Below, in pieces: positions 3,219 through 64,000 of a DNA stretch of 64,000 nt. Source of the stretch: Diphasiastrum complanatum (lineage: Eukaryota > Streptophyta > Lycopodiopsida > Lycopodiales > Lycopodiaceae); NCBI GenBank assembly GCA_029204225.1, contig CM055106.1, positions 11,142,539 to 11,206,538 on the forward strand, given 5' to 3'. The position numbers and the translations under genes were made by a program. The first letter of the stretch is position 1, and each line of letters begins with the position of its first letter. The notes below the pieces were generated by a model. It was not told the DNA's origin, made no database searches, and was given only the letters and a program-made list of their open reading frames with translations.

Positions 3219-3406
<188 letters not shown>

Positions 3407-3758
3407 TAATACAATCCACTAATCAAACAATTTCAAAAAAAAAAGCCTACGCCATCTCTATCTCCAATAGAGTCGTTAGCACCATCTCTAGCTTTGTTAT
3501 TGTCATTGTGTTGTTTGTTACTATACTACTGTACTGATGAAAAGCTTTATCATCTTCATGTGGATCTATCACCAGAATATGCTCCGCTCAGGACGAGAAA
3601 TTCAAAGCAACCCAAATTGTCAACTTCTGATATGGTCCGATACAGGGAGGAAAACTCAAACATGTAGATTTTTGGTCATCATGAGCATTGTATCCTATTG
3701 ATCCATGTTCATTGCAACATCCAGATTTTCATTCGGTGAGTAAGTTAATAATCTGTGT

Positions 3759-6191
3759 CATGGTAAAAATGGCCTTTTGGGTTACTGTGAGAATTTTATG
3801 CTCTATGGGAATGCACATTCAATGCAAAGAATACATTATTTGGAAGAGGAATCAAGGAAAATATCAAAGGAGTGCGAAGAAAAATCTACAAAGATGAAAA
3901 CTTGTTTGGATGAAAATGAGATGCTCAAGGAGGAGATCCAAAGGTTGAAATCTTCTTTGCATCATTATACAACTAGTAATGATGAGATAAAAATTGCATT
4001 TCAATCCATGCGTATCTTATATTTGTCTCTTGTTAAAGATATGGATGTGCTCAACAGAAAGGTCCGAAGCAACAAGAGGAAAAGACTAGTAAACAAGGAT
4101 ATATGTGATCTATCATCTAGAGGAGGTCATAGAAAAAGACGAATCCGTGCATTCAAGTAAGTTATAACCTATTTGGTACTGAAAATTGCTTGAACCTTTT
4201 AATTTATTTATAATCACTAATTTTGTTATTTATTCATTTCAACTTTCTGTTAATTTGCTTATTATATACCATTGTGAATACTATGAGTGTCCTGATTTTT
4301 ACTGACATTTTCATGAACATTATGTTTGCAATGCAGATCAGCATTGGTTGTTGAAGACCATTTGGCCGATGAGATTTCAATTGGAAACTCACTAGGCTCT
4401 ATCTTAACTTCTAAGTCTATGAAATCAATGTTAAATAATAACAAAATGAAAAAGATTAAGGCTTCAGTTACTGATAGCATTATGGATGAAGTTGGAAAAA
4501 TATTAGACACTACATTGCGTTAGGGGGCATGTGACTTTTCTAGCATCAGTAGGGACGCATATGCAACAATGTTTAATGAGGCATTTGCACAGGTAAATAT
4601 TAAAAGGTTTCCAATCCCACAACCATTTCATCTTTAAAAAAAAAGAGACATGTTAAACCATGGTATGCGGACAATAGTTGGTAATCCATCTCATATCAAT
4701 GAAGTGTATTGCTCGAAAGGAGAAAGCCTAGTATATAACAATTCCAACAATTTATTTATTGACATTAATCAGCTATTAACATTCATCATAAATTTTTACG
4801 GTATTACAAATGAGAATGTCAATAACAAGTTGATAGTTGTTCTCAAGTTAGATGAGTCTGAAACTATAAAAGGACAAAAAATGGAAAGAGTCAGTCTCAC
4901 AATCATGAATGCAGCACTTTTCGATTCTCAATTTCAGTGTTCAATTAGAAAACAATATCTGGTGGTTGGCAGCATTTCATATATAGCAGTTCCTTTGAAT
5001 AATAAATAGGGATAATCATTTGAATATGGATTTCTTATCTAAAATATTCTCTGTGCTAAATATTATGAGGCTAATCACGTTTTTGTATTCTCTTATAGGT
5101 GCTGAAAGAAGACCATAACATTCTCTCATGGATATTTAATAGAACATCATATCCTACCACCATAAAAAATCACATGGAGGGAGTTCCACTCAGTATTCCT
5201 GGAATTGGGCATTTAGCAGGAGATCTGAAGACATTAAAATGTATGTTCAATGTATCTCATGATGGTAACTCTAAACACCCTTGTTTGTACTGAATGAAAA
5301 CAGCAAAAGACATGACAAGGAGTGCAGGAATTTCAAGAGATCGAGCAGATCCTAATTGGAAACCTGTACTACCGATTCCTCTACGAAATGTTCATATCTG
5401 TACATTGCATGCGGAGGTGCGTATTATAGAAAAAATAATATATCTTCACATCTTGTTTGCATGGAATTCCGAGCCAGAGGCCTCTGCAAAGGAAGCTATT
5501 TCCAGATTAGAGGATGTGTTGTCCAAAGCAAGGTTACATAAAGGCCACGTTAAAATAAAAAAAGATGACAAGTTATCAGGTAAAACAGGAAATATTCCAT
5601 GCAAGCCGAGCATTGGAGGATCTAAAGCTCGAAGATTTTTATCAAATTATTCTGGCAAACAATCTAAGGTTCAATACACGGTTTGGAAAGAAATTATTAC
5701 AGCAACTCAAGATTTTGAAGAAGAAGGTTCTACTCGTATACACAAAGTAGAAGTTTGAAAAAAGTTAGAGAACATGGTGAAATACTTGAGAAAAGATAAA
5801 TTTTCAAATACTGATGTTCAAATGATACATAAAACAACCAATGAATTTGTAGATGCAGTTCAGAATGCATGGGGTGTTGATCATATGGCACATTATATTG
5901 TAAGATTTTGATTTTACACTACGATAGACAAATATGTGCAATTAAATTAGATACTTTTCGTACTGATTTAGATTATGTTTTTATGACATGTAGCACATAT
6001 TACGACATCATTCGACATTCTTTACAAGAAATATTGGAAGTCTTAGCATATGGTCATTGCAAGGAATGGAAAAATCTCATTGGCAAGCAAGAGCAACATT
6101 TCATAAAAGTACACAACATGGCGGGACTAGCACAAAAAACAGCACTGCAACTTTTCCAAAGGTTTTACAGAAGAATCCAAATTCGTCATAA
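3759..6191 (+). pseudogene. RAG1/Transib-like DDE transposase, element copy 1 (decayed)
   Basis: Probable DNA transposase. An N-terminal coiled coil (about 3820-4060) is followed by a basic, nuclear-signal-like stretch (RSNKRKR). A phase-2 intron at 4157-4336 (GTAAGT...GCAG) restores the frame exactly. Candidate catalytic residues: D1 in LKLDESE (codon 4851-4853), D2 in LAGDLKTLKCM (5222-5224), and E in LQGMEKSHW (6069-6071). A Cys lies 20 residues after D2, and the second Cys of the C-x2-C pair has become TGA (5291). A further intron (5900-5993) is followed by H-x4-H, with E 25 residues after the first His. These spacings are known from RAG1. Other stops are TAG 4521 and TAA 4635. The homologue at 49020-50790 confirms the exons. 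Membership of the exact superfamily is inferred. Confidence 0.72.
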
Positions 6192-6308
6192 TACAAAATC
6201 GATGGATTATAAAAAATTTCAAAAAGCATGCAAATTTATACAAGCCAGTAGGCTATAGACACACAATAAAATTTTGTATATTAAATAAAAATATTTATAA
6301 AGTACAAT

Positions 6309-6755
6309 TCAGCAGTATCTAATCTGCTTCCGATATTTTTCCAATGAAAGTTGCAACTTAGAATCATGCAACAATTTTCTTCTTTCGTATGGATCCAATA
6401 GCTCATAGTTTTCATGCTTACTCAGATCAATGTAAACAGCATACACTGCAAAATGAGATGATCTGAGCATGGAATTCACTGGTCCATATCCTAAAATTTT
6501 AACCGCAATAGTTTTCTTTACAAAAATTATTATATGCACCTTATTAAAATTATGTCCTCTAAGAAAATGAGACAATGCCTTGATTGTCATAATCATAGTT
6601 TCACCATGTTGATGAAACTTTGAATGGGCAACACTTATCTCATTATTCTTGAAGGACTTTAGATAGTGCCCGAGTGCATGATCTCTTGAAAATTCTCCCG
6701 CAGAAGATCTCTGCCCTCCTCGACGAATTGCAAAATCATCAAGGAAAATTGTTTT
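6309..6755 (-). pseudogene. unidentified terminal exon, minus strand, in element copy 1
   Basis: An open stretch of about 148 residues is preceded on the minus strand by a good splice acceptor (TTTCAG just right of 6755). It contains KTIFLDDFAIRRGG at the start, a GYGPVNSM segment in the middle and a charged C-terminus (DPYERRKLLHDSK). I do not recognise a family. It lies directly downstream of family B on the same strand and converges on the transposase gene, ending about 118 bp from that gene's stop. It could be the last exon of family B or a separate gene. No counterpart is visible in element copy 2. No upstream start can be assigned. Confidence 0.4.
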
Positions 6756-6863
6756 CTGAAATGATAAAAAACAAAGTAAGCTCCAGTATATAATCTGACA
6801 TAACAAATCTACTAGTACTTGATAAGAGAGAAAAACTTAGGCATTCGACTTTGTCTTCTCTGA

Positions 6864-7722
6864 TTATTGTCTCTCATCAATATTATGTCCACCTTTCGAT
6901 GTCAATATTGTTGGTGAATAGACAGTTGGCTGAAAACCAAGTTGACTTTGGATTCTAAGAAACTCCTCCTCAAAAGGTAGATCATCTTCTTTGATCTGAA
7001 AATTCATCAAGCTCTTTGCTCAAAATGCAAAGAGTCTCAGCTTCAGTGAAGTCAAAAAGATCCGATATATCCGATATTGTCAAAAGGGAATTATTATCTA
7101 TATTATAAGTAGGCAAAATGATCAAAGATTTATCAGAAGGAGAAAGGGTAGTGGGTGTTCTAGGGCCTATAAAAGTAGCCCTATTTCGAACAGAATCAAA
7201 ATCAAAACAATCATCTAAATTAACACTCGTGTCAATAAAAAATATATCTATATCTACAATCTTTGAATTTTCAGACTTTGTACCACTAGAAGAAGCTATT
7301 TCAAAAGTGGAGGGCACAGAGTTCGAATCGTTAGAAATATTTAACAAAAGGAAAAAAACAAAAGCAGACTGAAAATCAACAAATCTACATTTTTTATTAT
7401 GAATTGGACACTCATCTACAGACTTGAAATCATTATGTAACTTGGTAAACATTCTATCAAGCTTAGTTTTGTAGATATGCTTGTCGAGTGCCACCAGGTT
7501 CTGATAATGAATCATGTCTTTATTCTGAGATTTGAATAATGGAGTACTGAGCAGGGACTTAAATCTGAGATATATCTCAGAAAATGCCTCCACACCAGGG
7601 CCCTCAGCTATAGAAGGTAAAATAAAAAGAAAAGAAGAAAAAAACGATTTGAAATAGTCCAACCTATCAGTAATACCAAATTCATTAAAAAAAGAAAGCA
7701 AACTGGATTCAAAATTAGACAT
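6864..7722 (-). pseudogene. family B protein, element copy 1
   Basis: Unknown protein. The start is the ATG at 7722 (MSNFESSLLSFFNEFG), chosen because the homologue at 47884 begins with a matching SSFLSEFGI segment; the frame is open upstream but is not conserved there. Shared landmarks are LDYF near the N-terminus, KLDRMFTKL, and a Cys cluster CPIHNKKCRF followed by QSAFVFFLL. A second conserved block (ISDLFDFTEAETLCIL) lies near the C-terminus. The main frame stops at 6982, but the conserved end EEEFLRIQSQLGF continues in another frame to 6864. Either a short intron (TTTTCAG acceptor) or a frameshift lies there. It is divergent from the H3-like gene at 9245. Confidence 0.55.
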
Positions 7723-8930
7723 TTTAAACAAAAATAATAGAATTGAAGTTCCAAATATCGCTCTCAGGTGCAAACCCCAGGTCAGAAAAGCACGTCAAGG
7801 CAACGTGCGCTCGAGAGAGATATTGGAAGCTGGAGTATCAGATCCGAGCATAAGAACAACAAGCAAGAAAGAAAAGGGATATGAAACGTGCTTGAATGCG
7901 ATACCGGAGGATGCAGTATCGGATCCAGGCGCATAATAGTCAACGAGATGTAATGAGATCAAGCGGCGCGCTTGAAATCGATATTCGGCAAAGCAATCGT
8001 AAATTTGCATGAAAATACGAGCCGAAAAAGACCTATTTATATAAAAAAAAATTGCACGTGTGGAGGAGTGGCGAAGGAACACGTGTCCACATGTGATTGG
8101 CCAAAATAAATGCGTCGTACCTTGAATGATTGATCTGACATCTGTCACGTGTGAGAATGACATGCATCGATAAGGGATTCACACACGCGTCTCAGCCCAC
8201 GTGTCCCCATAATTGGGTCATCATTATCAGTACGGACATTCCACGTGGTCTAGTCATCTGACGACACGTGTCTCGAGCGTCTTTTCACACGTGCAAAAAT
8301 TTGCAAAAACTCATTAAAAAAAGAAAGCAAACTGGATTCAAAATTTTTAAACAAAAATAACAGAATTGAAGTTCCAAATATCGCTCTTAGGCGCAAACCC
8401 CAGGTCCGACAAGCACATCAAATCAACGTGCGTTCGAGAGAGATATTTGAAATTGGAGTATCGGATCCGAGCGCAAGAACAATGAGCAAAAAAAAAAAGG
8501 GTTGCGAGACACGCTCGAATGCGATACTTGACGATGCAGTATCGGATCCAGACGTATAATTGAGAGCAAGCGGCGCACTTGAAATCGATCTTCGGCAAAG
8601 CAATTATGAATTTGCGTGAAAATCTGAGCCCAAAAAGACATATTTATAGAAAAAAATTTGCACGTGCGGAGGAGTGGCGAAGGAACACATGTCAACTTGT
8701 GATTGGCCAAATTAAATGCGCCATACCTAGTATGATTGATCTGACATCTGTCATGTGCGAGAATCACACACGTCAATTAGGGATTCGCTCATGTGTCTCA
8801 GCCCACGTGGCCTCATAATTGGGTCATCATTGTCAGTACGGACATTCCACGTGGTCTAATCATCTGACGACACGTGTCTCGACCGTCTTTTCACACGTGC
8901 AAAAATTTCGTATATATAAGTCCTCGGAAT
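7683..8930. repeat. 629-bp direct tandem duplication in the divergent promoter
   Basis: Two adjacent copies start with the same sequence (cattaaaaaaagaaagcaaa) at 7683 and 8312 and stay similar to about 8930. The left copy contains the first codons of family B. In the right copy the short stretch holding that ATG is lost. The duplication therefore doubled the promoter and left a spare, start-less 5' end of the gene. Confidence 0.88.
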
Positions 8931-9244
8931 TTTCATCTTTTTTCGCAAAATTTTTGCTTTAAGCTCCCGATATCGCTCTCAAGCGCACTCTTTCATCTTT
9001 CAAGCTTCTGCCCTCTCACAGTGTGCTCAAGTCCGATACCACCTGTTGTGCAATATCACTTTCAAGCGCGCATCTGTTTTCTGCAGATAATCTTTGTAGA
9101 TCTTGCACTCGAAACCGATATTCAGTGCTGGTATTGATCTCGTTGGTATTGATCTCAAGCGCCCTTTTATCGCAAATTTTTTTGTTTTGATCCACTTTTG
9201 TTTTGATCAAACTTCTTTTTGTTAATTTTCTTCTTCCGAGAATG
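7723..9244. promoter_or_regulatory. divergent promoter between family B and the H3-like gene, copy 1
   Basis: No gene is apparent. The stretch is dense in CACGTG cores (for example ACACGTGT near 8083, 8213, 8274 and 8875; CCACGTGG near 8250 and 8850). It also holds repeated motifs of about 17 bp of the form ATATCGCTCTCARGYGC at 7755-7771, 8378-8394 and 8970-8986, a variant at 9053-9069, and inverted variants near 7880, 7975, 8515, 8575 and 9030. TATATAA lies near 8922. The same motif types fill the equivalent region at 47291-47883. CACGTG is the known G-box/ABRE core bound by plant bZIP and bHLH factors; use of these sites here is inferred. Confidence 0.65.
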
Positions 9245-11263
9245 ATGGCCAGGACCAAATCCACCGCCCATGCCATCACCACTGTATAGCCATCCCATTT
9301 CCGTGTTCCCCCTGGTACTGGCCATAGGCATGGTAGAAAGTAGGTCTGGTTGAGGGAGATTAGAAAACTCCAGAGATCAACTGAATTGTTGATCCCTAGA
9401 GCTCCTTTCGGCCGATCTGTACGGAATGTTACTCTGTCACTTGGGCTGAATGTTCGTTTTGTCGTGACAGCCATGTGGGCCTTGCAGGGTGCTGCAGAAA
9501 ATTTTATGTCCCAATTTTTTGAGGATACTTGTCTTTTGGCAGTGCATGGTAAGCGTGTCACCATCATGCCAAAGGATTTCGTCATTCTCAAAAGGCTTCC
9601 GAAAAGATATTCTGGTCTGCATATTGATAATGCCATCACCTCCAAAGACCTGCCTCTGGATAGAACCAACGTGCCTACTACCTCTAGGAGGAAGAGAAAG
9701 CAGGTTGTCCCCAAGAAGACTGGATCTCGAAGGCCAGCTGTTTTCTTTCCTCCTAGACGTATCTCGGCCAAGAGACCTCGTGTCTTCCTGAGCTCTGAGT
9801 CAGATGCTGGAGAATCTGACTCAGATCGAGAATCTTCACCCAGTCCTCCTCCTGTTATTCATCCAACTCCTCAGCAGGTTTCATCACCAAAAGTGTTGAT
9901 TACCCAAGAGGAGCTAGACAGAGTAACAGAGAAATCTGTAAATATTCTTTACACTTCTGTTTTCGCTCCTGTACATAATATTTTTGTGAGAATTCCATAC
10001 GATCCAGCCCAGGTTTTTTTTTTATTCTGACCATTATAATCAATACCAGGCCTACCTAGCTAACAAAATTGATCTTCTCGGCAACTTTTTTTATTTTCTT
10101 CTTCCAGATACACGTAGAAGCTTTAGAATAGGTCTCAAATTTTGTGCCGAGCTAAAAGATAAGACCTTTGAAATTTCAGATGCAATAGTAGAGGCTAGAG
10201 TTTCTTTTTTGCAGAAGAGTATTAGTTTCAATTCCCATGGTACAGTTTTTGTACTTAGTCCATTTTTCATGGGAGCGGTAAAGGCGAAATAAGCCAATTT
10301 TGAGAAGGCTGTATATTTTATCGAGTGCAGTCCTATGGCGAAATTTTATTTGATTCCATATGAAAATAAGTAAGGATTGCTCTTTTGTTTTTGTTGTTTT
10401 AATCTGGATTGTTGCATGCCTCATTGCTTTAATAAGAACAGAATTTTTTCGTAAATATGAATTTGAAGATATTTGAATCTTGGTTGTTGCAGTCGGCATT
10501 GGAGCCTAAACATTCTTTTTGTAAAGATAAATAAGGAGGGAGTATCAAATTTTCTATGTGTAAAATTAAACTCAACTGCAAATACACATAGAGAATTTGA
10601 TTCTCTACTTCATGATGTCGTTCGAGAAATACCGACAACGGCAATTTTAATTAAAGATATAACCATTAAATCTCTCATATGCATGTATTCTTTTTTTAAT
10701 TCAAATGTATCGTCATAGCATAAATAAAATTTCTATCATAATATTACTAATTTTCGTTCTATATATGTAGTGTGTACAGCAAAATGACGCTTTTAGTTGT
10801 GCATGGTTCGTCTTGTACAATACAAAGCTATTTTTTGAATGGTATAATTTACAAACGGATGTCGATATTGAAAAGATAATATTCTATTCATTTGTAGTTC
10901 ATTTCATTCTGATTCATATTTTATTACTATCATTGTTTGTACTTTGCTGATTTTCGTGTTTTGTGATGACAGTTTACTCTTGAGCCGTATACTCCTGATG
11001 ATGTATATAGATTTCGGCAAGAGTTGATCAGAACATTTGCCAAGTACGGTGTAAGCGTTGCACCTGCAATCGAGGGCCCTCAAAAGGAAGGTGCTCCTGC
11101 CTTAACAGTCTTTCAGGTTATTCAGGATGCAAATCTTATTTTATATGATCAAAAAGAAATAAAAGTCCTTCCTAATATAGAGGAAGGCAATTTTGTAGCA
11201 GATATTCCTCTTGTCTTAAAAGGCATTGAGACCCTTCCCGAAACAGAGGGCAAGATTATATAG
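9245..11263 (+). pseudogene. histone-H3-like fusion protein, element copy 1 (two nonsense codons)
   Basis: Histone H3 homologue followed by a long extra region. The ATG at 9245 opens M-A-R-T-K-S-T-A, matching the H3 tail. The same frame runs through two TAG stops (9287, 9341) into the histone fold: REIRKLQRSTELLI (alpha-N/alpha-1), ALQGAAENF (alpha-2), and FEDTCLLAV with KRVTIMPKD (loop 2/alpha-3). The fold ends near 9620. A basic Ser/Pro linker follows (PLDRT, RRKRKQ), then three conserved blocks in separate exons or frames: about 10110-10370 (AELKDKTFEISDAIVEA), about 10490-10715 (NSTANTHREFD) and 10975-11263 (YTPDDVYRFRQEL). The first two recur in copy 2. The normal acidic patch and chaperone contacts cannot be judged. 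The tail is shorter than in canonical H3. Confidence 0.78.
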
Positions 11264-11479: not shown

Positions 11480-12875
11480 CTATAATGATAAAAAGACATT
11501 GGCATGTATTTGTTGATAATGAATCTCAATGTTCTTCCATAAGTTGGATTGTTTCGCCAATATCTCTGCATTTGATCTCGAGCTCATGTCTTTTACGTAC
11601 CTACATAAAGTTAGAATTAGTACAAAGTTTGTAGTAGAAAGTTTTAATTGAAACTCTTCATAAAAGATCGAGCGTTTACAGTTACTTACGAGTTTACCAT
11701 TGAAAATGAATCTGAAGTCTGAAAGTACATCATCTTGTAGAAGCAATGGTTCCCGCCGGATGTAGTTTAGACTCCAATCTTCTTCCACCTCAACACATGT
11801 CAAAACTGCATCATTGTATATAATTTCAATATTTTTTTGTTTTGAATGTCCACTGGCTTCCAAGTCTTGATCGAGTGGCACTCATTTACCTTTATTTTTT
11901 TCCATCTTTGATAATGAAAGCATAAGCTCAACATTTGTTTTTCAATTTGATACGGAAGCACATGGAAGACATTTTAATTCTACATTCTATTTATCCATCT
12001 GATCTTTTGTCCCATCCTTCATCCATAAGTTCAGATAATAAACTATCTGATAAATTTTTGCATACAAACATCGTTGGGGTTTTGTGTACATTGACACTTG
12101 AAAAGAAATCCATAAATATATTCAAGGAAATAAACCAACTCAATTTCACTGTTTTTTGATCCCGTGCTCATTTTTAATGAATTATTTACATCATTATATA
12201 TCTCGCAACAAAATGATTTTGAAACTGTAGCATCTGGTGCAATCCATTCATCACTTTTAAAACTAGGTAATGGAATTGGTACTATTTGTCCAAATTTTTC
12301 TTTTGTATCCGGAATGTACATTGATTCATAAAAAAAGATCCCACTATCAACTAGATCTTTTGCAGTTCTACCTCGATATTGCAGTTGTCCAATATCAGTG
12401 TGAATAACATCTAACACATCTGGTAAAGATCCACTGGGCTCCCATTCATTTATGTTGGATGGATATAAATTTGCAAGAGAAAAATGATCAGATTGGCAAG
12501 TTTACTATTAGATATTTATGAATGACAAAAGTCAAAGTATCAAAAATATCAATACTCACAGTTGATTTCTTTGTGATTTTGACGGTTGAATCCTTTCACA
12601 TTTATCTCTGAATGCATATATATATGTTGGACTAGAATTTCAGAGATAGTATTTTCTCTTGATGATGTTCTGAAATCCAAAATTCTGGCCTTCCAATAAG
12701 ATCGAAATGATAGTTTTGACCTTTTCCTTTTTCGAAATGCTCCTCTTAATGATGGATGCATCAAAACCCAAGAGTTTTCTGAATATTTTCTTGGCACCCA
12801 TAATTCATTATTATCTGTCTCGTTGAATAGAAGCACAGAGTCGATTGAGGAGTACGGCTTTCTTGATGGCGCCAT
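11480..12875 (-). pseudogene. family A protein, copy 1
   Basis: Unknown protein, one of three copies in the window (also 29039 and 62854). Start ATG 12875 (MAPSRKPYSSIDS). Conserved order: W-x-L-M-H-P-S, a basic stretch (FRKRKRSK), ARILDF, ILVQHIYMHSEIN, then, after a probable intron with donor GTGAGT near 12560, LYPSN, DVIHTDIGQLQYRGR and FFYESMYIPD; the last exon has PLDQD and CVEVEEDWSLNYI. The expected acceptor before LYPSN reads CAA rather than CAG, so splicing is probably lost. It is convergent with the H3-like gene, about 220 bp apart. The basic run suggests a nuclear protein; function unknown. Confidence 0.6.
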
Positions 12876-13860
12876 TCATAATTTGCATGCAAAAATCTGA
12901 GACAATAAACTATGAATCTGAAAATTTGTGTAGACAAAAAGCCATGAATTTGAGAAAAAGTGTTGGCAAAAAATTGAAACACTGATCTATTTGGCGCTAC
13001 AAATTAACTCTGGTTAACCCTGTTAACCATGGTTTGACAATGCATATACATTAATGGTACATCGAATTTCTCATCTCAACCATCTGTCATATTCATTTTC
13101 AATATTTTTAAGTCTCTTTGGACAGTGATGAGCTGGAAGGGCAGGCCTCATCAACCAATAGCATTTCCACATGCTGCCCAACGAAACAACAATATATTTA
13201 AAAAGTTATGATTTTATTTATTTTTGAAAAATTCTACGTTATGTAGAACCCCGAGATTAAGGTTTTGATTGGTCCACATGGCAATGAAAATAAGAAAAAA
13301 AATAAAAAAACATCTTTTCCAAAGGCCCTCGTCGGGCTCTAAGTTTCTCTAATGCATAAATTTGATCGATTTCTACCTCAAAAATCTCCTCCTCAACCTA
13401 CTTATGGGAATGTGCACTTTGTAGTGGGTCAAGAGCATTTCTTGTCATGACTCCAATGGATACACTCTAAGTGAAATTTCATAGTGTGGCTTGTTGCATG
13501 AAGCCAAATTGAATGCCATATGAACAAAAAATTTATTGACAGTGCACAATGATTCTATGGCATTAATTATTGATTATAGTATACCCAACAATGAGCAAGT
13601 GGATTTTGTTTCTTGTCTCATGTGTTCTCCATTTTATGAGGTTGTTCTTTCTCGAATGACTCTCGACATATATTCTTGTGAGAGGTGCATTTGCAGCCAT
13701 CTTTGAGATTGAGATCTAGTTGGTATTTGGATTGTTGACTCCAGAATTGGCATAGGAGTAGTAATGGCTCAATATACTCGAGTGGAGGTTGTGGAGATCC
13801 ATCTATAAAACAAAAAGCATGGGAGTCCACCTAGTATATACATCATTATTGCATAAAGTG
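12876..13860. other. no gene seen; family A upstream region and AT-rich sequence
   Basis: The part next to family A carries GGTTAAC repeats (13010-13040) that resemble sequence upstream of family A copy 2. The rest (13100-13860) has no coding frame, RNA gene or clear repeat boundary that I can support. Confidence 0.6.
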
Positions 13861-27849: not shown

Positions 27850-29038
27850 TTCGGCTATCAAAGTATATACCCCCTATAAGAGTCATTCGGTTTATTAAGG
27901 GTCAAGATTTGATCAAAGTTCATCCTACGGTTATGATTGTTTGCTTCATAAGAAAGTCACCTACTAGCCACACCTACTTACCTAAAAACTTGAGAGGTAG
28001 GCTATATAAACAAAGCATTGCCCACCAAATTCTTCATGTGTTCGCTCTCCTTGCCTCTGCAAAAAAATGTGTGTTGTAGAGCGCTCACCTACACGATTGG
28101 ATCGCGACCTACTCTTGCATCTGATGAGTTTCCTTTATGTTTACACTCTCTACCACTTCAATTACAGTTTGGAGATGATAGGAAGATGCATAATCACCAT
28201 CGCTGAAGCTATGGAAACTCTTATGGTTTGCACATAACAAACAAAAACTGTTCCGATACGCCCATCTGGTCGCGCCCATACTACACATTCTGATGCACCC
28301 ATGTACTACACATTCGGATGCGCCCATATACTACACATTCTGATGTGCCCTTCTGTCCGCTATTGATAGCGCTAACAGTACCACAATTGCAGAAATATTC
28401 ATAAGTGGAACAACGATTGTTGTCAGCATCGAAACTACATGTTTTTAGCATACATATATGCATACACCTTCTTTGTTGATCATAGACAAACAAAGTGTGT
28501 AGAAACTAACAATATGCGTTGTCCTTGCTTAGCATTAAGCCCACTATTTGCGGTGAACACACGTTATTACATAAATATCGTGTGATCATCATTAGGGGAT
28601 ATTAGAATTCAAAATACACACTTTGTCAAGATGTTGTTTTTGACTTCGCACGCATTCAATGCTTATGTGTCCCAATGAATGGTCTCCATCTGTGACGAAC
28701 TGTAACAGTGGTTGACGGACGAAAATTGTATTTAACTTTCCCGGCCAAATTTTCGTGATTTTCAAATATCCCGCCGGGCAGAACAAACAAATGTGATTGG
28801 ACCACAGTTACTGCCCGAATACTCTTATGTTGCCCGTCATTGTTCACTCGAGGTTGATTTGACGTCAATAGTCATAAACTGTGGTTAACTAATCCTTGTA
28901 GTTAAGGAACTTCTTGTCATTCATAGGTATACCTCTCATTTTCTTCATTCTAGCTCTCATTTTCTTGTCATTCTTAGGTTTACCTCGCGATCTCTACATT
29001 CTCTCCAATCTCAGCTTGTGTACTCGTAGTTTCAACTA
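27850..29038. other. no gene seen; upstream region of family A copy 2
   Basis: Short imperfect repeats (CACATTCTGATG/CGCCCATA type) occur at 28260-28350. From about 28760 the sequence contains GGGCAG/CTGCCCG motifs, GACGTCAAT and GGTTAACT, which are partly shared with the region upstream of family A copy 3 (62565-62680). Confidence 0.55.
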
Positions 29039-30178
29039 ATGGCTACACATAATCGTAGACCAAGAGGAACCATTGATGCAATCAATATTTGCAATGAAAA
29101 AAATGCAGAAGATCAATGGATCTTTATGCATCCCTCTGCAAAAAGCTCATCCCGAAAAAGAAAAAGATCGGATAACATATATAGAAGCTTTTGGAAAGGC
29201 AGGATAATGGATTTTAAAGTATCACTTGCCATTCAATCTATCACGGAAGTTTTAGTTCAGCATGCTTATCTTCACAATGAGCTCAACATTCATGATTTGA
29301 ATCCAAATGATAGAAGGAAATGCAATTTTAAAATTTCAGATTCAATTTCTTTAGATTTAGCATTTTCTTTAAATTATATTTTTCTTGAGATGTTTTTGTT
29401 GGTTTTGCAGATTTGTATCCATCAAATTTCTTTGAATGGCAATCAGTTCAATCGATTGCAGGAATAATCGATGTCGTACATTCGGATATCGGTATTTCAC
29501 AATATAAAGGTCGTTTTCCAAAATCACTTTTAGAGTCAAGAGTTTTTTTTTATGATCACACCTATTTTCCTGATAAAAATGGTTTAGTTGGTAGATTAGA
29601 GCCATATCCTCTACCAGATTTTTCAAGTGAGGAAAGGATTTCTCTTGATGCAGCAATTTCAGAAAGTTTTCGATCTAGGCTATATATTGATATTCAGAGT
29701 ATATTAAAATGTAGCATTGGATCAAATAATAATAGATTAAGTTGGTATCTACCTTTTACTATTTTTGTTGATTTTTTTTTCAAATGCAATGTTTGGAGAA
29801 CGAAAACAATGTTTATTTGTAAGGACTTGAGTGCTGATATAATCGCCGAGTTGTTGGATGATGGTTGGGATACAAAACAAAATCAGCAAGTTGAGTGCAG
29901 AGTATGTTACTCATCCATGACATTTAGATATCACATCGAAAAACAAATGCTCACTTTGCTGCTGTATTATAGAAGATGGATTAAATGCAAAAACGTTTGG
30001 AAGCCACTTGATCAACCCTCAAGAGCAACTTCATATAACAGTGAAAATAAATGACAACATTCTTGCAATGGCTGAGGTCGAGGAAGATTGGTGTCTCAAT
30101 CACATTTGATCAGAACTAGACATGTTGCAATTCGATCTACCTCAGTACTATCAATTTCGATTGAATGGTGTAAAGGTA
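29039..30178 (+). pseudogene. family A protein, copy 2 (most complete)
   Basis: Unknown protein, best preserved of the three copies. The ATG at 29039 opens MATHNRRPRGTIDAI. It is followed by WIFMHPS, a basic run (RKRKRSD), SFWKGRIMDFKVS and EVLVQHAYLHNELN. After a probable intron ending TTTTGCAG (29410), exon 2 has LYPSNFFEWQS, DVVHSDIGISQYKGRF, FFYDHTYFPDKN, FICKDLSADIIAELL, a CRVC pair and FRYHIEKQMLTLL. The frame shifts near 30005; in the other frame the conserved AEVEEDWCLNHI follows, with one stop. No catalytic motif is recognised. The basic run near the N-terminus suggests nuclear location. It stands alone here, without the transposase or H3-like gene. Confidence 0.62.
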
Positions 30179-30759
30179 CTTTATGCCATATAAAAATATT
30201 CCTTTTTTTCTATTTCTAAGTGAATTAGTTTCATAAAATATATAACTAAAACAATTTCTCTTGTGTAAGAGTAAGGCAGGAAGAGCATATAAAATGCAAA
30301 GACATCGGACTTGAAGATCCATAAATTATGAACTATGGAATTTTGTATTATGTAATACAATTTATTGTATACATCATTTTTGAAAATATATGAACCACTT
30401 TTTCTATGAGGCTCTTTCATTTCTATGATCTCCATTTTCATTGTGCAAAACACAATGTAATTGCAACTGGATAATATGAGTTTTCGATAGCATGATTCAT
30501 TGTCTCCTGCAGAAAATACACTATCTCCATTGGGGAGATCTTCAGTCACTTGAACTCTAGTGATCACTACAATCGATGCTTGCCCTTGTTAAAGTCTCGT
30601 ATATATTAGTTGTATTTTTTGTCTTCATTGCCTTGGTCTGTATTGTCCTTGTCTTGGCATATTTGGATATGTTCAGATGATGATCTGATCAAAGCTTTGC
30701 TGCAACAAATCTAAGTGAACTAATGTTGCATGTTTGGATTGGTTGTGGCAAAAATTCAA

Positions 30760-45960: not shown

Positions 45961-47290
45961 GAATACTGATTTCAAAATGCTATTAAGAAAGACAGAATTT
46001 ACCTCCAAACTGACGATCTGCCAGTCCACGGAATGGGGAACATCTGTAGGAATATATATACTTAAATATGGAAGGTATATATCTACATCCTTATGCGTAT
46101 TGCTCGCCAAATTCATGTTGACACAAAAACCTTTAATACTATTATCTACAGATCTCTTAATAGAGATCAGGTTTAAACTCCAGTGGTCACTGCAAAATAA
46201 GATTGAAATTTCTTTAGCTGCAATTCTGAGAACTATTTCCATTGACAATGCCAATGTTACTGCATCAAACAACAAGAAGCATTTAATATATCTTACTTGG
46301 TATGATAAGGGATGAGCATATACTTTGTTGCTGGTGTGAATCCACTAGTCAAACACTGTGACAATGTGTCATTATTCTCCTTGAAGGCCTGAAACAAAAA
46401 GTTGCTCAGCACCAGCAACTCATTGGATGAATATCTTGCAATGTCATATTGCAAGAGTGTAAGTCTGGACTCTATCACAGGATCACTGATAGAAGTCCGT
46501 CTGTCTTTGAGATCCAAACAATCAAGAACTCTATAATTTATACTAAAATCAAGTTCATCTAACAAAATGGAGTACCAATTGTATCTATAGCATCGGATAT
46601 GTCCTTCTCAAATTTAAGATAATCATCCGAATCTATATATGTATAAAAATTTGAGGGAGGAGGAGGAGGTGGATGTGTAGTATCTACAGGAATTGAAGGG
46701 GTATCCAAAATAGATGTAGCTATATTTACAACAGTATTAAGAGCAGCGTTATCTACAATTGATTCCGGGTTAGGCTTCACAGATTCTGTGGTGTCTACCC
46801 TCCTTACTTTCTTTGGAGCTCTCTTGGGTGCTGTCTGCTTCCTAGGACGCTTGGTAGGAAGATCAGTCCTATCTAGAGGAGTTGGTCTGGGAGCAGCAGG
46901 CTGAGATACGTGCAATTTGCAAAACCTCTCCCTCATTCTCATCAGGAGCTGAAAATTCTTGGGCATTATGGTGACTCTCTTGGAATGGATTGCCATCAAA
47001 AATGAATCTTAAAAAAAAAGGCTCATGTATCTTCAGCAGCCTCCTGAAGGCACTGAAGAGCACTGGATGTGAAATCTAACCAACTGTCCGAGATCATTTC
47101 TAGTTATGTTTTGGACAACACGGTAGAATGGAACTCTTGGAATCAACAGAGCGGTTAATCTTTGATACTTGCGTATTTCAGAGAGCCACCTGTTGCGGTT
47201 GCGCATTCTAGGTCTAGCGAGAGGTGTAATGGCAACCGCCGGAGTTGAGGACAAGCCAGCAAAGAAGAAGTCCCTCCTTGTCTTAGGAAG
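45961..47290 (-). pseudogene. histone-H3-like fusion protein, element copy 2 (frameshifted)
   Basis: Homologue of 9245-11263 on the other strand. It shows SEIRKYQRLTALLIPR (alpha-N/alpha-1), then in another frame ALQCLQEAAED (alpha-2), then after a further shift AIHSKRVTIMPKNFQLL (loop 2/alpha-3). The linker keeps PLDRTDLPT and a basic run (KRPRKQTAPKRAPKK). The fused region keeps SDPVIESRLTLLQ and YMLIPYHTK (about 46540-46300) and SNTHKDVDIY (about 46080), and the gene is truncated at 45961. The N-terminus upstream of RWLSEIR is open but does not read ARTK; its start is unclear. At least two frameshifts lie in the fold, so this copy is dead. Confidence 0.74.
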
Positions 47291-47883
47291 AATATCGATT
47301 GTGAAGGATGCGCACAAGTGCGATATGCGGAGTAAAAAAAAAAATGAAAAATTCATCAAAGTTTGTGATTTTATATCGTGGTTCGCACGTGCGAAGAACG
47401 TCCTGTCACACGTGTGGGACTTGTACGATCAAATGCGAGAGCAACACATGTCACCCTGTCACTTTACACGTGTGGGATTTGTACGAGCAAATGTGAGAGT
47501 GACACGTGTTATCGAACAAACGAATGAACACGAGACACATGTACAGGTGTCATTTCACACGTGTCCAGGGTCAACTCACACGTGCCAGCACCTGTAGTCC
47601 AATTGAAAGTAGACACGTGTCTGATCGTTGACCACACGTGCTTAAATTTAGTATAAATGGCACGAAACCCAATTAATTTTTTACCTTTTTTGTTCTCAAA
47701 ATTCACGGCATATCGCTCTTGTGCGCGCACATTGTTGTCCGTTTGTTTGCAACGATACCTACTTGCGCACAAGTGCAATATTCGGTATCTACCTGCCGTG
47801 CATATCCCTCTTGTGCAGAATCTTGATAGTCAGTTTTGTTTCAGTTCTCTCTCGCGCACAAGTGCGATATCTACGTTACTTCC
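47291..47883. promoter_or_regulatory. divergent promoter between the H3-like gene and family B, copy 2
   Basis: No gene. CACGTG cores are very dense (47388-47660 holds about ten ACACGTGT, CACACGTG or ACACATGT forms). The same motif as in copy 1 appears as ATATCGCTCTTGTGCGC near 47710 and ATATCCCTCTTGTGC near 47803, and inverted as GCGCACAAGTGCGATAT near 47310, 47770 (CAATAT variant) and 47858. The divergent arrangement and both motif classes are thus shared with 7723-9244. Confidence 0.65.
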
Positions 47884-48813
47884 ATGGCCTCTTCCTCAAG
47901 ATCCTCACGAGATTCAGGCTTGAGTTCATTTCTTAGTGAATTTGGGATTATTGAAAAACTAGACTACTTCCACAGCCTATTCAGGCCATATCTACATGTT
48001 TTCAGGACTGCACAGCCAAATTCTGACGTATTTTATGAACATTATGTTAGATTCAGAGATATGCTTAGTAAGCCTATTTTCTCCGTAGGTTCACTCCAGT
48101 ACATGCATTATACTGATCTTGTTCATTTCTTCCTAGCTTTCAGACATAGACTAGATAGAATGTTCACCAAATTGTTTGATCTTTTCAAAAGTAGTTCAAT
48201 GTGTCCTTATTGCAACAAGAAATGTCGATTGGTAGAATATCAGAGTGGTTTTGTACTTTTCCTGTTAGTTCAAATCCCAGATGATGAGGAAGTTTTTGTT
48301 GCTGACCCTCCTTTTGCATCATCCTCTGTTCAGTCAGCTATTAAGAATATCAGTCACTTCCTTATCTCCACATCTTTGATAAGGAAAGTGACTTTATTGA
48401 TGTAAATATTGATGTTCTCCGGGATTCTTTTATTGGCCAAAATACATCTACTAATGAATCGATTCCTATAGAGGAGTCTAAATATCTTTTCAATTTGCCT
48501 GTATATTATATTAATGACTGTATATTTTACTACTGCTGATTTATGTAAATTTTTTGACTATCGTGAAGATGAGGTTCTATGTTTATTATTCGGCACAATT
48601 TTCGAATTCTCTGACTTTGTAGATTTTGAAACAGATGACCTTGTTGTTGGTATTGATTTTGATGAGGAGGAGGGACTTATGACCGATGAAGAATGCCTAA
48701 CTAAGACTTTATCAAATATTGTTGAGGATGGGCGAGGCAGACCATCCGATGAAGAATTCACGGCATTTCAATCCCAGATGGGCTTTCCTCATCCATCATT
48801 CATGCATTTATGA
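47884..48813 (+). pseudogene. family B protein, element copy 2
   Basis: Homologue of 6864-7722. The ATG at 47884 opens MASSSRSSRDSGLSSFLSEFG, then LDYFHSLFR, FYEHYVRFRDML, HRLDRMFTKL and CPYCNKKCRLVEYQSGFVLFLL. The Cys pattern C-x2-C-x3-C looks like a possible metal site; copy 1 has C-x5-C at this place, so only the outer two are conserved. The first frame stops at 48405. The C-terminal block (FFDYREDEVLCLLF, acidic stretch, DEEFTAFQSQMGF) continues in another frame at 48514-48813. It is followed on the same strand by the transposase-like gene. Function unknown. Confidence 0.55.
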
Positions 48814-49019
48814 TGATTCCACTTCAGTACGTGGTCATTATATTGATCATCCTGACATATCCGCCTATCCAAGCACATAAAGTCCAACAATATGAAGCAC
48901 CACCATCACATTCTCGACATTCCTTGACTTATCCCGAATATTCACCAGAAAGTCCAAAACCATTAGCCATACAAATTTCAGCTATGGTGATATTCTGTTA
49001 ACTATCTATATTTTTTGCA

Positions 49020-50790
49020 AATCTACATTAGTAGCTCCTCGGAATATTAAAGACAATGCTTCACTAGGAATGTCATTGGGCACAATATTGACTGGCAAAT
49101 CCACTTAGCATATCATAATGAACAATAGGAGTTCAAATGTAAAGTGTAAAATAGCAGAGTCTTTGATGGTGGACATTCAAAATTTTTTAGATAAGACTAT
49201 AGTTCATGGTGCTTGTGATTTTGCAGGTATTAGCAGGGAAGCACATGCAACAATATTTAAACTAATTAGAGAATCTTTTAAGCAAGTTCAAATTAGAAAA
49301 GTCCCAATCCCTAGGACATATCACTTGAAGAAAGAGAGAGATACATTAAACATAGGTATGCATAAGATCACTGGAACTCCATTTCATATTGAGGAGGTGT
49401 ATGAAACTGATGGAAGAACGATATTCTATAATTCATCAAACAACTTATTTGTTGATCTAAATTACTTGCTGAGATACATCATCACATTCTATAATATAAC
49501 CTATGAAAAGGTGAATGGCAAAATAATCATAGTACTTAAGTTAGATGAGTCAGAAATTGTGAAAGGGCAGAAGATGGAGAGGGTTAGTATAACTCTCATG
49601 AATGGTGCTCTATCACAAACAGAGAACCAAGAAGATTTCAGATTCAGTGTCCAGTCAGAAAATGATATATGGTGGTTGGCAGCGTTTTAGGTAACTAGCC
49701 TCATTATTACATGACATTCATTGAATAGTATTAATTCATTGTAAACTAAGTCTGATTAATTCTTTGGACAGGTGCTGAAGGAGGATCATGATATATTATC
49801 ATGGATATTCTTAAGGACATTTTATCGTAGGATCATCAAGGACCATATGGATGGAGGACTTCTGAATGTTCCAGGAGTTGGAGACTTCAATGTTGAATGG
49901 CACTTAGCAGGTGATTTGAAAACATTGAAATGTATGTATAATGTCTCTCACCGTGCTACATCAAAACACCCTTGTTTGTACTGCATGAAAATGGCAAAAG
50001 ATGTAACTAGGAGTACAGAAATTACTAGAGAATATGCAGATCCAAACTAGAAGCCTGTGCTGCCTATTCGCTTGAAAAATGTACATGTTTGCACTCTTCA
50101 TGCAGAAGTTAGATTAATATAAAAGATCATTTATCTTCATATAGTTTTTGCTTGGAATACTAAGCCAACATCATTAGCAAAGGAAGCTATCTCTCAATTA
50201 GAAGATGTTTTATCAAAAGCAGGATTCCATAAGAGACATGTCAAAAATTCAAAAAGATGAAAAGCTTTCAGGAAAGAATGGGAACATGCCAACTAAGCCA
50301 AGTATAGGAGGAGCAAAAGCACGTCGTTTCCTATCAAATCATACTGGTAAGGCTTCTAATATTCAACACTCAGTCTGATATTATTGCTGCCACTCAGGAC
50401 TTCGAGAAAGACGGCAAAACCATAGTACTAAAAGTTAATGTATGGAAGAAGCTTGATAGTATGATTGTTATTTTAAGAAAAGAAAAATACTCTGATTATG
50501 ATAAGAAAGCTGTCCAAAAGACTTGTGTCGAGTTTGTTAATGCAGTATCAAAAGCATGGGGGGAAGATCACATCACTCATTACATGGTTAGTATAAAGTT
50601 TTTAAGATGCTTTCAATTTTTCATATATATTTAGATCCAAACATAAGACTAACATTATGATTTTGACATATGCAGCACATACTAAGAGATCATACAACAT
50701 TTTTTGCAAACACATATGGAAGCTTGAGTGTAGGGTCATCACAAGGGATGGAGAAGTCAGACAAGCATCAACAGGATGCGTAGCTCGACA
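49020..50790 (+). pseudogene. RAG1/Transib-like DDE transposase, element copy 2 (truncated by gypsy)
   Basis: Homologue of the gene at 3759-6191 without its coiled-coil start. D1 lies in LKLDESEIVKGQKMERVS (codon 49544-49546); an intron of about 80 bp (donor GTAACT near 49691, acceptor GGACAG near 49771) precedes VLKEDHDILSWIF; D2 is in LAGDLKTLKCMYNVSH (49913-49915) with Cys at +20 and +23 (CLYC, 49973 and 49982). Then come VHVCTLHAEVRLI and KPSIGGAKARRFLSN, a phase-0 intron 50587-50675, HILRDH (two His five apart) and E in SSQGMEKSDK (50751-50753), 25 residues after the first His. Stops at about 49688, 50048 and 50119 and a frameshift near 50250 inactivate it. The gypsy E sequence begins near 50780, cutting off the C-terminus. 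Confidence 0.74.
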
Positions 50791-61800: not shown

Positions 61801-62393
61801 GCACTACGTTTCTTAGGCTTCAAACCTCTATTTGCTGAATCAAATGTCTATATCAAACATGTCCAAAATGAAATAGTCATTCTAGCTGTTTATGTTGATG
61901 ACACACTTATCTTCTCAAGAAGAGATAAGTTAATTTCAGATGTCAAAAGAGACATTTTTGAAATATTTGAGATCATTGACCTAGGAGAAGCTAAAATCTA
62001 TCTAGGCTTGTAGATCGTCAGAGACTTTGAAGGTGGTAAGTTGTGTCTGCACCAACAAAAGTACACTCAAAAGATCATTGAAGGCTTCAACATGCTTGAA
62101 TGCAAAGGTGTGGCATTCCCATGATACCTGGAACAATGCTGAGCAAGGCAGATTGTCTGCAGACTCTCGAGGAAGAGGAACGAATGGCCAAAACACCCTA
62201 TCGTAGGCTAATTGGATCATTGTTATATCTAGCAGACGACACCAGACCTGATATAGCATATGCAGTATACAAGCTGAGCCAATATAATCAGAACCCAGGA
62301 TCGTTACATTGGAAGTTGGCAAAGAGAATACTACAATATCTCCAGGAAACGAAAGACTATGGACTGTGTTATTCAAAGGAAGCGGGACATTAG
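58880..62393 (+). mobile_element. Ty1/copia retrotransposon F, 3' truncated
   Basis: gag and pol run in copia order from 59318 to 62393. LTR-like and leader sequence lies to the left, but I could not fix LTR edges or a primer site. RNase H and the 3' LTR are missing; the sequence changes character near 62395, just before the family A copy 3 region. Its protein motifs differ from copia A and B, so it is a separate lineage. Confidence 0.8.
59318..62393 (+). pseudogene. copia F gag-pol (decayed)
   Basis: gag opens near 59318 with a NYLIWKLKTSLL motif and has two zinc knuckles (CNKCRRSGHTEEKC, CIHCHKQGHAAVDC; about 60035-60150). Protease: VLDSGATSHF (about 60310). Pre-integrase: LWHKRLCHMNMEAL (about 60690). 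The integrase core is missing: the sequence passes to the tail FGCAVYMHIPDKL near 60820. RT: KWIYKIKIGPDGE and ARLVAKGFSQKYGIDY (about 61450-61550), IYGLKQASKQWY, and in another frame YVDDTLIFSR (about 61890). The connection region GSLLYLADDTRPDIAY ends at 62393. Stops occur near 59590, 60303 and 62012. Confidence 0.88.
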
Positions 62394-62853
62394 AGGAGTT
62401 CTAAATATCAAAAAGACCCTTTGTAAAGATACTTTTATTTTTTTTCTTTAGTTTTGACCGTCACCAAGCCCAATCAAAATGCACAAATTTGAAATCTACG
62501 TAACGTATTTCAAATTAACTGAGAAATAAAAATGCAATATAGAAAACTTTGAAATTTGTGTCCGGGCAGCATGGACATATCCCATTGCTTTCTTCTTCCT
62601 GCCCGACATGTGCTAATCTGCCCGACGTCAATACCTCAAGTTAAATTTACTTGACTATGCTGGTTAATATAATGAGATTTTCTAACTATACTAGTTACAG
62701 TTATAGAAATACAGTATGAACAGTTAAATAAAATATGGTATACGCAGTAACTGTGACTATGTTGGCATTCACATTAGATTAAATGTGATACGAAAAATTG
62801 AAATTAAGTATCATATCAGAGAGATTTTTGGCACCCAAGCTTTGAAAATAGCA

Positions 62854-63406
62854 ATGGCAAGGAGACCCAGATCTACCCAGTCTGTGATTCTTTACAATGA
62901 GAAAGATGAAGCTAATAATTGAAAGCCAACAAAATATACGAAGAATTCATGGGTATTGCTGCATCCATCATCAAAGGCCAATTTTCGACAAAAGAAAAGA
63001 GCAAAAATGACATGCTAGTGTTCATAGGACACCAACTTTATTTGTTTGCAAGGATTTATCAGATGAGACTTTGTCAGATCTCATGGATCAAGGTTGGGAT
63101 AGTAAAACAAATAATGACATAGAATGCAGGAATTAAAAGTCCTCAATGATCTTTCGTTATCATATCGAAAAGAAAATGCTCAGTCTGACATTTAGCTACC
63201 AAAGATACAAGAAAATTGAAGGTACATGGCTACCACTGGATCAAGACTTTGAACTAAATGGTCACACAAACCGAATAGAGATAAGCATTATCTACAATGA
63301 GGAATATTTGACTATGGTTGAGGTGGAAGAGCATTGGAAGCTTGATTTTATCAGAACAGAGCTCATGCTATTACAAACCAATCTACCAACATATTTCAGT
63401 TCATAA
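62854..63406 (+). pseudogene. family A protein, copy 3 (internal deletion)
   Basis: The ATG at 62854 opens MARRPRSTQSVILYNEKDE, meets a stop near 62920, and continues NSWVLLHPSSKANFRQKKR. It then passes directly to LFVCKDLSDETLSDLMDQGWD. The middle third of the protein (the LYPSN to FFYD region of copy 2) is deleted. The C-terminal exon is well kept: MIFRYHIEKKMLSL, WLPLDQDFELNGH, VEVEEHWKLDFI, ending at 63406. The comparison shows which blocks of family A are conserved. No transposase or H3-like gene is visible beside it within the window. Confidence 0.6.
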
Positions 63407-63409
63407 AAT

Positions 63410-64000
63410 GGAGCAACATTTGATATATCAATGTATATTTATCTATGAATTCTATACATGTATTTTTGTTCTATGCTATCTGTATTTGTTTTGATCTTAA
63501 TTTAGTATAACAACATCATCCTTTGCACCATCATCAATAACGGGAGGCTGAAGCCTTGCCTTAGCCAGTATACTCGGGATAATTTCTTGTCTGAATCTGT
63601 ACACCTGGCTTGATGTGTACTCATGAAGTGTAAACTGCAAGATAGACTCTACCGCTCCGAGCCTTGCCCAATTTTTTTTGGAAATCCTTATCGGGCAGAA
63701 TGGTCTGTGCCCGGGCCCTTCCGTAGTATGTTACACATGTAGTACGATATGCACTACATTAAGTTACACTTGTGCAATTCTATATGTACTATGTAATGGC
63801 CATTAGCAGGTCAATTACCACATAGAATCTGAGACCCCGACAACTGAAAGTGAGTGATGAATGTCCATAAGCTTTTGGATGACTTGATTATACGTGGTAA
63901 TGGCCCAACCATTGAAACGTCACGTAATTCTATTTCGCAAAAAAATTCAAGTAGCTATTTCATACATTTCTAAATGGGCATGAATTCATGGGGCTTATAT
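63410..64000. other. no gene seen; short inverted-repeat sequence, copy 2, at 63814-63901
   Basis: AT-rich sequence. ATTACCACATAGAATC (63814-63829) and GATTATACGTGGTAAT (63886-63901) form inverted ends like those at 45496-45582, with similar inner sequence. CGGGCAGAATGGTCTGTGCCCGGGCC near 63690-63715 repeats the GGGCAG motif seen upstream of family A copies. Confidence 0.55.

Follow-up and report, generated by a model that had tools for sequence, protein, structure and literature searches.

A probable RAG1/Transib-like transposase gene in a four-gene DNA transposon of the land plant Diphasiastrum complanatum

Introduction

RAG1 is the enzyme that assembles human antibody genes, and its second catalytic Asp (D2) lies 254 residues from its catalytic Glu (E). 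Transib transposons carry one gene; Transib elements and recombination signal sequences (RSS) have ends of the CAC heptamer type, and CACTA/EnSpm elements end in CACTA or CAC. Here we compare with these systems a decayed transposase gene, designated T, and the DNA transposon that carries it in a 64,000-nucleotide stretch of the Diphasiastrum complanatum genome (assembly GCA_029204225.1, contig CM055106.1, positions 11,142,539 to 11,206,538 of the forward strand), referred to as the window. In PMC12730594, CACTA, Mirage, Chapaev, Transib, Plavaka, ESTA, Lanisha and RAG1 are united as the CMCT group, whose common zinc layout between D2 and E is C(2)C with H(3-4)H; most members have 5'-CA..TG-3' ends (CAC..GTG in CACTA/EnSpm) and target duplications of 2-5 bp. 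Transib and RAGL transposons have been described mostly from animals, and also from an alga, fungi, bacteria and some plants, and the origin of RAG1 has been argued from these; 39 Transib-like proteins were reported in plants, and Transib proteins average 34% identity (PMC9435367). The statement in a preliminary description of gene T that no RAG1/Transib-like transposase was known to have been described in land plants is not supported in view of these plant proteins. The analysis presented below indicates that T probably encodes the transposase, of RAG1/Transib architecture, of a cut-and-paste DNA transposon with several genes in a land plant.

Results

Catalytic and zinc-site residues of gene T

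The first catalytic Asp (D1), D2, the first zinc Cys, the TGA codon in place of the second, H-x4-H and the Glu of copy A of gene T are all present in the sequence where the preliminary description had placed them (Table 1). In copy B of the same window, which shares ~65% DNA identity with copy A, both Cys are retained in PCLYCM, and HILRDH and QGMEKS occupy the corresponding sites. When the 98 relatives of T described below were examined, C-x2-C was located exactly at +20/+23 from D2 in 51 of the 55 with a detected D2 motif, and H-x4-H with E at +24 or +25 after the first His was found in all six with a detected C-terminal motif (last exon). Because the diverged copy B and the relatives keep C-x2-C, H-x4-H and E, the residue layout is more than chance.

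The preliminary description had also counted the near-identity of six independent spacings as a pointer to RAG1 or Transib. The residues do lie as it described, but the D2-E distance of 251 codons, obtained after removal of an intron placed by eye, is peculiar to the decayed copy A (277 and 278 in the intact relatives P0004 and P0005), so that its match with the 254 of RAG1 is partly luck. Nor do the spacings amount to six separate indications of RAG1, since every CMCT lineage has the C(2)C/H(3-4)H layout (PMC12730594); it is therefore a mark of the group and not diagnostic of RAG1/Transib.

Relatives of T and the host

A first protein search yielded 41 relatives of T and an alignment search 57 more, giving at least 98, a lower bound because the second search limited its scoring to the 7,986 candidates with the most words in common. 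P0004 (898 amino acids; putative catalytic residues D411, D508 and E785) and P0005 (900 amino acids) have reading frames uninterrupted from the N-terminal part to beyond the Glu. Three relatives are proteins of the fern Adiantum nelumboides, and the window itself includes coding sequence for ABA/WDS (ASR; PF02496 at 79 bits), both of which support the reading of T as a plant gene in a land-plant host. No relatives of T were found in prokaryote genomes, in phages by DNA search, or in viral contigs, where relatives of gene Y of the same element were also not found. One of the Adiantum proteins, P0094, fuses a transporter (PF00854, PF07690) with the D1 and H-H-E parts of T, perhaps through a gene-model error and perhaps as an exonised insertion; apart from its transporter domains, no Pfam domain is listed for any of the 98 relatives.

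Besides copy A, ten T loci were read from the same genome (1,744,706,496 bases in 5,176 contigs; n = 11 loci). Intact versions are present among the protein relatives, in P0004 and P0005. In this genome, where a search for intact copies had been proposed as a check, none of the 11 loci has a T that is open over its full length among the tblastn pieces.

Profile comparison with RAG1 and TNP2

No hAT, MULE, P or KDZ transposase model of Pfam was among the matches listed at E ≤ 10 for eight relatives (the filters drop most weak matches), PF02992 (CACTA TNP2) was unmatched in eight relatives, the Pfam RAG1 models did not match the T relatives, and no relevant NCBIfam family was found for T. Neither phmmer nor hmmsearch of T against PDB sequences returned RAG1; a RAG1 core query against PDB sequences (E ≤ 0.001) found BbRAGL but no Transib either.

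In register with RAG1, and not with TNP2, were the alignments obtained by hhalign with a family profile of 97 rows (P0034, P0086 and P0091 omitted, P0094 trimmed, two window copies added). Of the other row sets, A3 comprised 63 of the 98 relatives and A5 comprised 47 of the 98 together with two window pieces. Compared with 17 RAG1/RAG1L sequences, the profile reached E 0.0093 and beat 100 of 100 shuffles by a narrow margin (31.95 against 31.73 for the best shuffle), pairing D2, both Cys, the GGAKARNF/NGNFARKL block, both His and the Glu with their RAG1 counterparts. A single RAG1 sequence scored 23.6, which was not significant (5 of 200 shuffles higher), and a single TNP2 sequence scored slightly more, 24.1 (3 of 100 shuffles higher), in an off-register alignment that paired unrelated parts. 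Four partial TNP2 rows, a small alignment, gave 17.5, with at least six of 60 shuffles scoring higher. In the H-H-E block, which was selected after inspection and compared with human RAG1 and TNP2 only, no shuffle out of 500 reached the RAG1 score in five of seven rows (2 of 500 for the window copy, 17 of 500 for the Adiantum row), whereas 7 to 430 of 500 shuffles reached the TNP2 score across rows, with fairly good values in three of them (7, 14 and 21 of 500). The profile comparison tentatively supports an alignment of the putative active site with RAG1 and not with CACTA TNP2.

These scores also bear on whether T could come from a CMCT transposon nearest to CACTA/EnSpm, Chapaev, Mirage, Plavaka, ESTA or Lanisha, RAG1 appearing on top only because RAG1/Transib structures have been solved. 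The nearly equal single-sequence scores of TNP2 and RAG1 agree with such an origin, as do the element ends CATTAGAGAAAA, which resemble plant CACTA ends, and the sharing of C(2)C, H(3-4)H and mostly CA..TG ends by all CMCT lineages (PMC12730594). We nevertheless consider it unlikely in view of the register of the RAG1 rows, the failure of both TNP2 comparisons in register or score, and the absence of a PF02992 match, in a comparison that covered CACTA TNP2 among these lineages.

Predicted fold of T

Predicted models of T show an RNase H fold of the RAG1 type that includes a zinc-binding insertion, with likeness over ~440-470 residues. As in the structural check suggested at the outset, in which T was to be compared with the RAG1 core, the fold comparison ranks RAG1/Transib above the other DDE transposases among solved structures, and the P element and Hermes fall far below RAG1 in both comparisons. 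The fold searches cover solved structures, so that the absence of CACTA, Chapaev and Kolobok from the listings carries no evidence. The distance of P element and Hermes, together with the lack of hAT, MULE, P and KDZ models among the listed Pfam matches of eight relatives, makes it very improbable that T is another DDE transposase (hAT, MULE, P, KDZ or Kolobok) with a convergent zinc site, an idea prompted by the looser form of the zinc pattern that such families share, as noted in the preliminary description.

A four-gene element and its copies

Gene T is one of four genes of a ~10-kb element with the order T> <X H> <Y (Table 1). This arrangement was found in 3 of the 11 loci, namely copy A, C6b (with only the second part of Y) and C13b (with T lacking its first part). 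The near duplicates C14a and C14b carry T, X and Y without H, C19 contains T and X followed by an inverted second element carrying H, C17 is rearranged, and C11, C4, C13a and C6a contain T and no more than a fragment of X. Within the window, tblastx comparison revealed a second set of X, H and T in copy B, while copies C and D each have Y and copy D also has the H tail. The orientation of T in copy B is opposite to that expected from copy A, and this copy is thus rearranged or mosaic. At C6a, T is accompanied on the opposite strand by another, diverged fragment of T (5713-6351 of the joined locus), which has ~39% identity to copy A.

H scores 76 bits against the Pfam Histone model, for which the cut-off is 26.4, and matches histone H3 chains at 1.2e-19, and its C-terminal domain beyond the histone part matches no known family; X has no Pfam match above the cut-off. 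Between the window copies, the four genes have proportions of synonymous differences (pS) of 0.69-0.81 and of nonsynonymous differences (pN) of 0.24-0.49, a pattern not seen in a wrong-frame control made for T only. It appears from this contrast that protein function of all four genes was retained during the divergence of the copies.

The many loci with T but not the rest (C11, C4, C13a and C6a) and the differing orientation of T in copy B would fit a transposon consisting of T by itself, with X, H and Y as neighbours from another element or as captured host genes. This is quite improbable, given the same order and orientation of the four genes in three loci, the T-X-Y arrangement in the two near-duplicate loci, the matching sequences of the T-side and Y-side ends, and the constraint on all four genes. 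A candidate 3.35-kb element made of T alone, which had been defined with the truncated copy C11 as reference, was dropped.

A 20-base motif, TATCGCTCTCAAGCGCA, recurs with related versions in the stretch separating the divergent genes X and H in copy A and in copy B (47310-47870), perhaps as a shared promoter or protein-binding site.

Table 1. Features of the four-gene element and its copies in the window (positions counted from the first base of the window)
Feature	Position	Strand	Remarks
Transposase gene T, copy A	3535..6240	+	decayed, several exons; N-terminal stretch to ~3815 placed by eye against P0006
D1 codon	4851..4853	+	sequence context KLIVVLKLDESE
D2 codon	5222..5224	+	context GHLAGDLKTLK
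Zinc Cys codon (5282, D2 +20) and TGA replacing second zinc Cys (5291, +23)	5282..5293	+	
Intron	5900..5993	+	GT..AG, by eye
H-x4-H	5994..6011	+	HILRHH; His codons at 5994 and 6009
Glu codon	6069..6071	+	context QGMEKS; +25 counted from first His
Gene X	6309..7773	-	convergent with T; no known family
Region between X and H	7743..9170	.	repeated TATCGCTCTCAAGCGCA-like motif and 0.6-kb direct repeat
Gene H	9242..11263	+	histone H3 fold and C-terminal domain; decayed, several exons, limits approximate
Gene Y	11556..12875	-	no known family; limits approximate
Y-side element end, copy A	13320..13354	-	reads CATTAGAGAAACTTAGAGCCC from outside
Copy C	28590..30312	+	Y-side end at 28590 and gene Y
Copy B, gene H	45967..47188	-	decayed
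Copy B, gene X	47883..48786	+	partial
Copy B, gene T	49001..50780	+	partial, broken; C-x2-C intact
Copy D	62388..63637	.	Y-side end at 62388, gene Y (+), H tail (-)

Element ends and target site

The Y-side limit is sharp in copies C, D and A, and the T-side end was obtained from C19, C4 and C13a. Both ends start with CATTAGAGAAA and have GCCC and GAGGGCC in common; in C6b and C13b, the first two end bases differ. The ends read CATTAGAG, and a pattern for both of them, with one mismatch allowed, gave 1,390 forward and 1,417 reverse matches (2,807), compared to 1 and 2 (3) for the reversed-pattern control. All ten left ends near that of C19 read CATTAG in unlike flanks, and 5'-CA..TG-3' ends were present in 10 of 10 left ends and in 8 of the 10 ends of five inward-facing pairs on C1 (~5.7-14 kb apart). 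A 2-bp duplication (AG) flanks one of these five pairs and none flanks the other four; a target duplication of ≥3 bp was found in none of the five, none of which is known to be a complete recent insertion. The element may make no target duplication, or the five pairs may be rearranged. For copy A, the left end could not be located, because a ~180-base CT repeat (3219-3400) lies where the T-side similarity to other copies stops.

A cluster of many right-type ends and many CACTA TNP2 genes, several of them 2.6-3.1 kb apart, was noticed at C1:48.4-50.3 Mb and resembles a unit that has been amplified; elsewhere on C1, the few listed TNP2 places have no listed end within 20 kb.

Discussion

The plant family has the CMCT zinc layout and CA..TG ends. 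Its ends CATTAGAG lack the RAG1-type CAC heptamer and differ from those of CACTA/EnSpm in reading CATTA, not CACTA. We have not filed it as Transib or RAGL, because these ends are not the CAC heptamer and no 5-bp duplication occurs in the five pairs. Since Transib proteins average 34% identity and the plant family is invisible to direct search, it seems much further off than Transib. It is likely a new CMCT lineage that lacks the Transib end sequence; in our tests, which covered these two among the CMCT lineages, it lies closer to RAG1/Transib than to CACTA. The idea of a RAG1/Transib-like transposase in the preliminary description was right in kind and under-argued in detail; that T belongs, with three further genes, to a larger mobile element had escaped it.

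Several results weigh against this placement. In the sequence searches, RAG1 was matched neither among PDB sequences nor in Pfam. The shuffle margin of the 17-row comparison is narrow, the single RAG1 sequence did not reach significance and was slightly outscored by TNP2, and the H-H-E block, chosen after inspection, also fits TNP2 fairly well in three rows. Full-length open T is missing from the 11 loci, and target duplications of at least 3 bp from the five pairs. In both models, the Glu sits in a low-confidence part (block means 40 and 50), and we know of no solved structure for CACTA, Mirage, Chapaev, Plavaka or Kolobok, so that RAG1 was unrivalled by them in the fold search.

With the RAG1 core and RAGL (ProtoRAG, BbRAGL), T would share the predicted fold over ~440-470 residues, D/D/E, C-x2-C, H-x4-H and the block IT.Y.H....H.P...GS...W...G.E, and in both cases a convergent partner gene adjoins the transposase. 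The differences are the ~14% identity, unmatched in sequence search, the end sequence, the additional genes H and Y, and gene X, which belongs to no known family and is unlike the RAG2 kelch repeats as judged by eye, without fold prediction. Transib (HzTransib and the plant Transib-like proteins of PMC9435367) is likewise unmatched in sequence search and has other ends and a 5-bp duplication that the five pairs lack. In gene number the two also differ, four in the plant element against one in Transib. CACTA/EnSpm (TNP2, PF02992) is alike in its CMCT layout, CA...TG ends and plant host, and different in that the plant element has no in-register profile match to it, reads CATTA and shows no 3-bp duplication in the five pairs. 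VANDAL/MuDR and the TET+ or SET+ transposons are also DNA transposons with chromatin-acting genes (PMC12730594), but the extra gene of the plant element has a histone H3 fold, for which no such case was found in the literature searched. That literature, mostly papers outside subscription, yielded no four-gene RAG1-type element with a histone-fold gene.

The T product is predicted to combine a catalytic fold like that of RNase H and a zinc-binding insertion, in which C-x2-C follows D2 and H-x4-H precedes E. Two T subunits, as in a dimeric RAG1-type DDE transposase, most likely hold the CATTAG ends, which the putative D/D/E site would cut, by analogy via a nick and hairpin, before T joins the cut ends to a new site. 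X, H and Y probably evolved as proteins of the element, and H, with its histone H3 fold and C-terminal domain, probably acts on the chromatin of the element or the target, e.g. against silencing. More tentatively, and with slightly less than even confidence, we propose that land plants harbour a third clan of RAG1 type in addition to RAG1L and Transib, concealed by its sequence divergence, in the form of a four-gene transposon with CATTAG ends whose own histone H3-fold protein manages chromatin at ends or targets and whose transposase is convergent to a partner gene, as in RAG1/RAG2. A deeply diverged, abundant plant family predicted to share the fold of RAG1 would, if confirmed, provide an outgroup for the whole RAG1 lineage and a new enzyme for comparison, and a DNA transposon keeping a histone H3-fold gene under selection would represent an unusual and directly testable route to act on chromatin.

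Rfam and tRNA scans of the window gave no matches. Fragments resembling retrotransposon gag/pol were recognized by eye at 1-2680, 21526-23383, 33125-33769, 39775-41989 and 61300-62390.
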